From Humisphaera borealis (GTDB lineage Bacteria > Planctomycetota > Phycisphaerae > Tepidisphaerales > Tepidisphaeraceae), in contig NZ_CP063458.1 in assembly GCF_015169395.1 (NCBI RefSeq), forward strand, positions 62,001-126,000: DNA of 64,000 nt, in the 5' to 3' direction. A model generated the notes under the pieces. The model made no database searches and was not told the DNA's origin. It was given only the letters and a program-made list of their open reading frames with translations. Positions 30,992-32,433 of this stretch are shown one piece after another. Numbering within the stretch: position 1 is the first letter of the stretch; each line of letters opens with the position of its first letter. Both the position numbers and the translations under genes were made by a program.

Positions 30992-31105
30992 CCACGAAGG
31001 GTCGCAAGGAGGTGCATTCGACTTGGGCACGACCGGGAAAGCCGGGACTGGCTCCGTGAACCTCCGTGCTCGTTCGTGGTCCAAATCGTCGCAGTCAACA
31101 AAAAA

Positions 31106-31138
31106 GAAAGCCCAGCTGGATCAACCAGCCGGGCTTTC
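31106..31138 (-). terminator. Rho-independent terminator, minus strand
   Basis: Read on the minus strand, GAAAGCCCGGCTGG and CCAGCTGGGCTTTC pair over 13 of 14 positions around a 5-nt loop, directly followed by TTTTTTG. The T-run is present only on the minus side, so it terminates leftward transcription from the 31.1-31.56 kb region or from the hydrolase gene beyond it. Confidence 0.85.
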
Positions 31139-31236
31139 GCAGTGTGCATCTGCTGTGGTCTGCGCCGCCTCAGCGGTCGAAGACCGGGCTGCTGTGCAGC
31201 CGCGTGGATCGCGGGAATCGCACCCGCGAAAGCTGC

Positions 31237-31272
31237 TTACAGCAGTCCACACTTACAGTCACAATGGGTCAC
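31237..31272 (-). CDS. Putative 11-residue Cys-rich mini-ORF (MTHCDCKCGLL)
   Basis: A GTG codon at 31272 is followed by eleven sense codons (the GTG included) and TAA. The peptide would contain Cys at positions 4, 6 and 8. Immediately upstream is an 11-nt perfect complement of the 16S rRNA tail, the strongest ribosome site in the window, at ideal spacing. The stop codon lies inside a small hairpin. The layout resembles a leader peptide, but no gene lies downstream on this strand before the terminator. Translation is unproven; the site could instead act as an RNA that binds ribosomes. Confidence 0.35.
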   Translation of the reverse strand: MTHCDCKCGLL

Positions 31273-31283
31273 GGATCACCTCC
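31273..31283 (-). promoter_or_regulatory. Full-length 11-nt Shine-Dalgarno sequence
   Basis: GGAGGTGATCC on the minus strand is the exact complement of the GGATCACCTCC end of bacterial 16S rRNA. Normal sites match 4-6 nt. The GGAGG core is 6 nt from the GTG of the mini-ORF. Confidence 0.7.
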
Positions 31284-31557
31284 AATCAATGCGGGTTTGA
31301 AGGGTGCCTGACCGTGAGGACTCCTCACAAACAGGTTGCCCCAGCGGGGGCCGCCCTTCTACCCATCAGCCTTGCCCAGCAGTCGCTCGCCACGCGGGGT
31401 TGTGCCCTGGCCGCTCTAGATCGGCCAGGGTTCGTCGCGTGCTTGCCGCCGGGCTCTTCCTTCCGGTAACGCCTTACCGGAAACGGCTCGTTCGCCGGTG
31501 TTTCGGATCGCTCCGCAGCACCGGCAGTCGTCGGATCATCGCCTTCGACCGGGAGCA

Positions 31558-32247
31558 TTATAGCCCGCTTCCAGTGGTCGGGAAAAAGAAATCCGGAGAC
31601 TGCACAGTCGCCGTCGTCGCATGCTTTTGAAAGGTGATCGTCGCCACCTGCGCGGCGTACTTCTCGGCGACTTCTACGTGCCCGCCTTCGTGGGTAACGT
31701 CGGCCGATCGGTCGATGTTGTCGAACCCTTCGATCGGCTGCGAGGCGAACCAGTTCGCCGGGTAGGGCATCCGCATGCCTCGGCCGTGATCGAATCGGGC
31801 GATCAGTCCCTTGGTCTGAAAGACGTTGACGGCAAACACGGCATTCGCCGGCTTGCAGGCATGAAGGTCTCGGACCCATCGCAAGGGGACTAGTCGTGAA
31901 ACGCCGCCCCATCGAAACGTGCAGACCGGATCGATCAGACCGATCCGAATGCGGAACCGCGGGCCGAGCGCGTGGGCCAGTTGCAGGGCGCTCCAGCCGC
32001 CGAAGCTGTAGCCGCATAGCCGCAGGTCGAAGGGGGCGGCTGCCGTCGGGGTGCGGCGGTGGAAGTACCTGCGAATCAGCCGCCTTGCGCCCAGCGTATC
32101 GAGCGAGGTGAAGGTGCGATCGGCCCCGCGATCGATCAGGCCGCGGCCGTCGAAACCGTCGCCCAGGGGATTGAAGCCGAGGAACGCGAGGCAGAGCGGG
32201 GGGGCTGTGGCAGAGAGATCGGGCGTGCTGGCTGACGGCATGGTCAC
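31558..32247 (-). CDS. Alpha/beta-hydrolase-like protein of unknown function
   Basis: 229 aa. The segment LCGYSFGGWSALQLAHALG at about 77-95 has the nucleophile-elbow pattern G-x-S-x-G with Ser as nucleophile, and LGPRFRIRIGLIDPVCTF supplies a plausible Asp region. A late THEGGHVEVAEKYA could provide the His. No signal peptide. The short length and lack of a lid suggest a thioesterase-type or lipase-like enzyme; substrate unknown. An ATG two codons in (32241) is an alternative start. Divergent from the Gfo/Idh/MocA gene; a 46-nt inverted repeat sits between their starts. Confidence 0.65.
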   Translation of the reverse strand: MTMPSASTPDLSATAPPLCLAFLGFNPLGDGFDGRGLIDRGADRTFTSLDTLGARRLIRRYFHRRTPTAAAPFDLRLCGYSFGGWSALQLAHALGPRFRIRIGLIDPVCTFRWGGVSRLVPLRWVRDLHACKPANAVFAVNVFQTKGLIARFDHGRGMRMPYPANWFASQPIEGFDNIDRSADVTHEGGHVEVAEKYAAQVATITFQKHATTATVQSPDFFFPTTGSGL

Positions 32248-32323: not shown

Positions 32324-32433
32324 CTTCAAAGAGCCGCGCACGAAGTGTACTCACGTAGTAAGCGGGAACGGACCTCGAAACCTCGCAGTTCCCGCTTACT
32401 ACGTGAGTACACTTCGTGCGCGGCTCCTTGAAG
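32324..32433. repeat. 46-nt near-perfect inverted repeat in a divergent promoter region
   Basis: Arms 32324-32369 and 32388-32433 match with a single mismatch across an 18-nt spacer. The arm contains GTGTACTCAC, again with a GTACTC core like the twin-hairpin family, but is otherwise a different sequence. It occupies most of the space between the divergent hydrolase and oxidoreductase genes. Confidence 0.92.

Follow-up and report, generated by a model that had tools for sequence, protein, structure and literature searches.

tmRNA is a structured RNA with an internal open reading frame (ORF) of about 10 codons, the stop codon of which lies in a hairpin, and in architecture its mRNA-like domain comes closest to the RNA described here, encoded on the minus strand of a 64-kb stretch of the Humisphaera borealis genome (the window). 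Unlike tmRNA, whose ORF is entered at a resume codon and needs no Shine-Dalgarno sequence or start codon, this RNA has a conserved 11-nt Shine-Dalgarno sequence and start codon; it lacks the alanine tRNA-like domain and the 3' CCA of tmRNA, and ends in a terminator. RNAIII/hld, SgrS/SgrT and SR1/SR1P are standalone RNAs that are translated and that encode functional proteins. A promoter and terminator of their own are a trait of such dual-function small RNAs that is also predicted here, both in the sequence and in its homologs. By contrast, it is the frame and the stop that are conserved in the present RNA, not the peptide, and the conservation spans a phylum. For base pairing with targets, as in such dual-function RNAs, we found no seed that is both conserved and unpaired and has known targets.

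Leader peptides, such as trpL and the upstream ORF of S. aureus rbf (PMC13009471), likewise pair a short ORF with a strong or extended Shine-Dalgarno sequence, and extended pairing between the Shine-Dalgarno sequence and the 16S tail has been established to determine initiation in S. aureus (PMC13009471). In contrast to leader peptides, the RNA in the window has no conserved downstream gene, and its own terminator follows the whole structure. Another described RNA, the Rhodopirellula-1 motif, is a candidate in Proteobacteria and Planctomycetes that was tabulated without an Rfam accession (PMC2864571). The columns of its table entry read '?', 'y' and '?'; taking the 'y' to mean cis-regulatory, the motif differs from the RNA described here, although the two are set apart by description, not by sequence, and may overlap (PMC2864571). 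A literature search returned no description of our RNA.

We propose that the locus encodes a standalone, structured, ribosome-engaging RNA of Planctomycetota that is translated and whose conformation is switched by its translation, a reading that we regard as the probable one on balance. Sequence comparison makes the anatomy highly probable, namely a standalone RNA with an extended match to 16S rRNA, a short frame with its stop, and a stop codon within a covarying hairpin. The conformational switch, modelled from alternative pairings, is put forward tentatively.

Locus anatomy and distribution

The minus strand is rich in hairpins between a TATAAT box and an intrinsic terminator (31099-31562; Table 1). 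The minimum free energy of this strand (31560..31099, 462 nt) is -234.2 kcal/mol, as compared to -188.4 +/- 5.9 kcal/mol for 100 dinucleotide shuffles (z -7.74), which confirms the hairpin-rich minus-strand region that a preliminary description had proposed; the plus strand also folds, less strongly (z -5.85), as expected for inverted repeats. The right-hand limit drawn in that description coincides with the TATAAT box, and TATAAT-like boxes occur at the matching position in most family homologs. The -35 box of the window copy is weak; a fuller promoter, TTGACN-(16-19)-TANNNT, lies upstream of 25 of 76 homologs, as compared to 4 of 71 downstream controls. A terminator scan gave three matches where 2.0 were expected. 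Two of these are weak or nested, and the opposite strand has merely a 5-bp terminator-like site, so that the strong terminator, with its T-run of TTTTTT, is confined to the minus strand as had been claimed. Complete homologs also finish in a terminator hairpin and T-run.

Table 1. Features of the locus in window coordinates, with the basis of each assignment
Feature	Position	Strand	Basis
Predicted RNA, ~450 nt	31099..31550	-	z -6.4 to -7.7 against shuffles; homologs by BLAST and covariance model
-10 promoter box, TATAAT	31557..31562	-	sequence; start of transcription expected near 31550
5' hairpin TTTCCGGTAAGGCGTTACCGGAA (loop AAGGCGUU, conserved in own family)	31461..31483	-	compensatory stem changes
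Conserved GGAAGAGCCCGGCGGC strand of the 5' domain	31441..31460	-	near-invariant in family alignment
Extended Shine-Dalgarno GGAGGUGAUCC, complementary to the 16S rRNA 3' end over all 11 nt	31273..31283	-	own 16S
Micro-ORF GTG ... TAA, 11 codons, MTHCDCKCGLL	31237..31272	-	conservation of frame and stop
Stop-codon hairpin region, segments A-D	31187..31252	-	pairing energies, homolog folds, alignment
Short hairpin CUGCU-GUA-AGCAG with the stop codon, pairing state A:B	31233..31245	-	sequence and fold
T-loop-like hairpin CGCGG-GUGCGAUUC-CCGCG	31210..31228	-	covarying stem; contains the GGTGCGATTCCC block
Intrinsic terminator, 14-pair stem (31138..31106) followed by U6	31099..31138	-	terminator search

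An alignment of the bacterium's own family shares the promoter box, the 5' hairpin with its invariant loop and a GCCCGGCGGCGG strand; the rest consists of variable or optional hairpins, followed by a 3' domain that closes in the terminator. The stem of the 5' hairpin shows five pair types at alignment columns 10-19. We rejected a candidate pseudoknot between GGGC of the 5' loop and GCCC before the Shine-Dalgarno sequence, for which the RNAs' own pairs averaged -9.7 kcal/mol as compared to -10.0 kcal/mol for permuted pairs.

Using BLAST with plain DNA against 150 relatives, we recovered the locus in 12 genomes of the same family, where conservation falls into two blocks, the 3' part (identity up to 92%) and the 5' hairpin. 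R1, a covariance model built on the 3' domain, matched 51 of 397 genomes of the class, nearly always in single copy and in many cases beyond the bacterium's own family. Its relatives were used to build R2 and then R3, by which 174 of 377 good-quality Phycisphaerae genomes (46%) and 116 of 377 genomes of a phylum sample carry the RNA, with about 72 of the latter matches outside the class and, again, nearly always one copy. The R3 counts probably underestimate the true numbers, given weak models (0.59 bits per position) and strict filters; there is also an opposite bias, in that some of the weakest R3 matches are false. One match (L105) is a false positive found through its Shine-Dalgarno sequence alone, and several of the weakest matches in a held-out set are false too. 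A search of plasmids and phages gave no match. The preliminary description had named covariation in relatives as a check, and conservation does extend past the terminator and is accompanied by compensatory base changes. We conclude that, as judged by sequence, the uncatalogued single-copy RNA gene is real and occurs across Planctomycetota.

The L105 match lies in an AT-rich planctomycete region where, at approximately 1270-1560, tandem micro-ORFs each have their own Shine-Dalgarno sequence and encode peptides rich in Lys, Pro and Gly (MKKGKGPKK, MKKSKPSPKKK, MKKSKPSPKK and MKKGKGCSPKK).

The 16S complement and the micro-ORF

In every family, the RNA has a common centre that reads approximately AAA, GGAGGUGAUCC, GUG/AUG/UUG and a very short frame. 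The genome's own 16S gene ends in GGCTGGATCACCTCCTTTC. Of 74 homologs, 48 carry its 11-nt complement unchanged and most of the others carry it nearly so, and in many members GAAAGGAGGUGAUCCA lengthens the 16S match to ~15 nt. Elsewhere in the 7.19-Mb genome the 11-mer is rare: of six copies, two are antisense to 16S, two precede ordinary-looking start codons, one lies elsewhere and one is the copy described here. By predicted pairing, the Shine-Dalgarno sequence is no more open than the remainder of the RNA (mean unpaired 0.33 as compared to 0.34), and the value for the five preceding bases is 0.61. Because a near-invariant 16S complement recurs phylum-wide in one standalone RNA, ribosome capture is suggested to be central to this RNA.

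Capture could be the whole function. The RNA would then be a 30S decoy, in which the 11-15-nt 16S match titrates free small subunits and the micro-ORF stabilises initiation, with no switch. The extended complement is the most conserved sequence across the phylum, exceeds the needs of ordinary initiation and is scarce in the genome, all of which fits a decoy. A pure decoy, however, needs no fixed stop position and no hairpin in covariation with the final codons and stop codon, such as that described below, and we consider this explanation fairly unlikely.

The preliminary description had found no credible long ORF. It is true that no long ORF fits, but an 11-codon ORF (GTG ACC CAT TGT GAC TGT AAG TGT GGA CTG CTG TAA) preceded by the 11-nt Shine-Dalgarno sequence had been passed over. 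Read in the frame of the start codon, 73 of 75 homologs reach their first stop at codon 9-15, as compared to 4 and 2 of 75 for the remaining two frames. Among 40 held-out matches that played no part in model building, the corresponding numbers were 31 for frame 0 and 5 and 2 for the others, and several of the nine failures are evidently false matches. A few members lack a canonical ORF or are false matches (L017, L046-L048 and the 9 of 40 held-out). Across 74 curated homologs from 22 families, the start codon is GTG (58), ATG (12) or TTG (4) and the stop codon TAG (37), TAA (23) or TGA (14), with ORF lengths that vary between families by whole codons. These data argue that the RNA is very probably translated via the conserved micro-ORF.

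The micro-ORF could also be read as a micropeptide gene, with a peptide of 9-15 residues as the product and the RNA as its mRNA. Conservation of the Shine-Dalgarno sequence, start, frame and stop is consistent with this, as are the recurrence of Cys in many members and a BLOSUM similarity that drops somewhat when the reading is shifted out of frame 0. By contrast, codon differences are mostly non-synonymous, far above synonymous, with no clear excess at third positions; GAGGUGG is read CGA-GGU-GGU in some families and ACG-AGG-UGG in others; the peptides differ strongly among families; and the remaining RNA is long and structured. We therefore find a micropeptide gene quite unlikely. Because the peptide drifts, translation rather than its product seems to be what is conserved, and the most conserved parts of the RNA are a complement of the 16S tail and a frame with a seemingly unimportant product.

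The stop-codon hairpin and a possible switch

The translated RNA that we favour would end its short frame inside a structure. Segment A comprises the final codons and the stop, and segment D lies downstream. The predicted pairings of the four segments are alternatives, either A:B with C:D, or A:D with B:C, with A:D enclosing B:C and an apical loop that is often CCGACGGG. In 45 sequences of the class, true partners formed the A:D duplex with a mean energy of -15.7 kcal/mol, as compared to -13.2 kcal/mol (sd 0.33) for permuted partners (0 of 5000 permutations). With partners permuted inside families the mean was -14.1 kcal/mol and again 0 of 5000 reached the true-partner energy, a strong result but one that gives no formal probability, as this permutation leaves within-family relatedness in place. 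Folding of more than 60 homologs predicted the A:D form for most of them, and the window copy itself is predicted to adopt A:B/C:D. For the own-family alignment (A1), shuffles score below the helix model, and alignment-based counts, which are of sequences rather than of events, agree with the stop hairpin. We infer that the stop codon sits in a hairpin that is kept by compensatory change.

In the bacterium's own family, the apical loop carries an insertion, the T-loop-like hairpin, which is absent from other families and whose stem shows GC, AU and CG at one pair and UA and CG at another. The GGTGCGATTCCC block, in which the preliminary description had seen a faint likeness to the loop of the cobalamin riboswitch, is part of this family-restricted hairpin, and the likeness did not hold; a reordered cobalamin riboswitch core was unsupported, and RF00174 gave no match even at E<=10. 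A seeming resemblance to a split tRNA-Tyr or T-arm was set aside once the hairpin proved to be a family-specific insertion. In L017, a 19-nt insertion with its own hairpin shifts the frame of the micro-ORF, which then terminates at a UGA within the T-loop hairpin.

The arrangement of frame, stop and alternative hairpins would allow translation to operate a switch. A 30S subunit would be captured through the long 16S match, and since the ORF is about one ribosome footprint long, each RNA would hold one ribosome. Translation up to the stop codon would pull the A:D hairpin apart, and the terminating ribosome would cover the stop and segment B, such that the C/D strand and the apical loop are freed, or C:D forms. 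The RNA would thereby report its own translation and could act as a sensor of ribosome or initiation capacity. We know of no standalone RNA that senses or occupies ribosomes in this manner. Going one step further, the RNA may be a phylum-wide, housekeeping-type translation meter that captures one 30S subunit through pairing to the entire 16S tail, translates a dispensable micro-ORF and refolds when the ribosome terminates within the RNA's hairpin; this remains a doubtful extension of the model. If it is true, this trans-acting RNA would signal by being translated rather than through its product.

Known RNA families and genomic neighbours

A scan of the 64-kb window found no Rfam family at gathering score, in keeping with the earlier proposal of a candidate new RNA. 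A single-copy RNA gene that is conserved over much of a phylum and lies below the Rfam threshold is unusual. ARAGORN found no tRNA or tmRNA in the window, and RF00023 (tmRNA) gave no match, whether at gathering score in the window or at E<=10 in the region. The genome has a conventional tmRNA at 716728, RNase P RNA at 5985777 and SRP RNA at 7182969, so the locus is none of these, to which the preliminary description too could not match it. At E<=10, eight sub-threshold matches appeared, the majority of which owe their score to the terminator hairpin, with the Caulobacter small RNA CC2171 (RF01867), the closest catalogued RNA, a notable exception.

CC2171 has in common with our RNA a terminator and GAAAGGAGGUGAUCCAGUG, the complement of the 16S 3' end plus GUG, and from that GUG its consensus can be read through 22 codons until a UAA, itself within a hairpin. 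The locus might thus be a diverged member of a known Rfam family, most likely this one, shared by Alphaproteobacteria and Planctomycetota. Sub-threshold matches do recur, with 20.6 bits for the window and 37.2, 31.5, 31.2 and 30.3 bits for the relatives L094, L109, L100 and L097; all of these scores, however, are far under the gathering score of 75 bits, which neither the window nor any relative reached, good alignment is limited to the terminator and the block complementary to 16S, and the matches rest mainly on GAAAGGAGGUGAUCCAGUG. Unrelated control genomes and antisense 16S give weak RF01867 matches as well, and CC2171 differs in its apparent ORF, which is twice as long, in its phylum and apparently in its hairpins. 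Membership is therefore improbable; the likeness suggests, rather, that CC2171 works in a similar way. From its consensus frame, CC2171 may be translated rather than non-coding.

The gene downstream of the RNA varies in identity among homologs and, by longest ORF, lies on the same strand in 37 and on the opposite strand in 29. The next gene in the window is convergent. By eye from translations, a convergent ilvC or a divergent guaB adjoins in some family members, elsewhere fusA or an ECF sigma gene lies downstream, and in another family der lies upstream. We found no conserved regulated gene downstream among homologs, and the earlier judgement that the element is not cis-regulatory is borne out by this variation in neighbour and strand. 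An orphan leader-peptide attenuator, or another cis-regulatory leader, would have the classical layout of leader peptide, alternative hairpins and terminator, and a same-strand gene (fusA, ECF sigma factor) does follow in some f1 and f14 genomes. Besides the unconserved neighbour, the terminator is independent of segments A-D and the ORF has no fixed run of one codon type, which makes a leader very improbable. Its predicted promoter and terminator mark the RNA as a standalone gene, not a leader. Finally, chance hairpins of GC-rich DNA next to a terminator, conceivable in a GC-rich genome where the plus strand is strongly folded too, are contradicted by the cross-phylum conservation, compensatory changes and conserved frame, and can be dismissed.

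In two members of the family (L010 and L013), fusA (elongation factor G) follows ~0.4 kb downstream of the RNA gene, in the same orientation. The window also contains, at 32331-32431, a near-perfect palindrome of ~100 bp (GAGCCGCGCACGAAGTGTACTCACGTAGTAAGCGGGAAC followed by its inverted copy) that resembles a MITE or REP element and is repeated at ~30 places in the genome with 72-94% identity.
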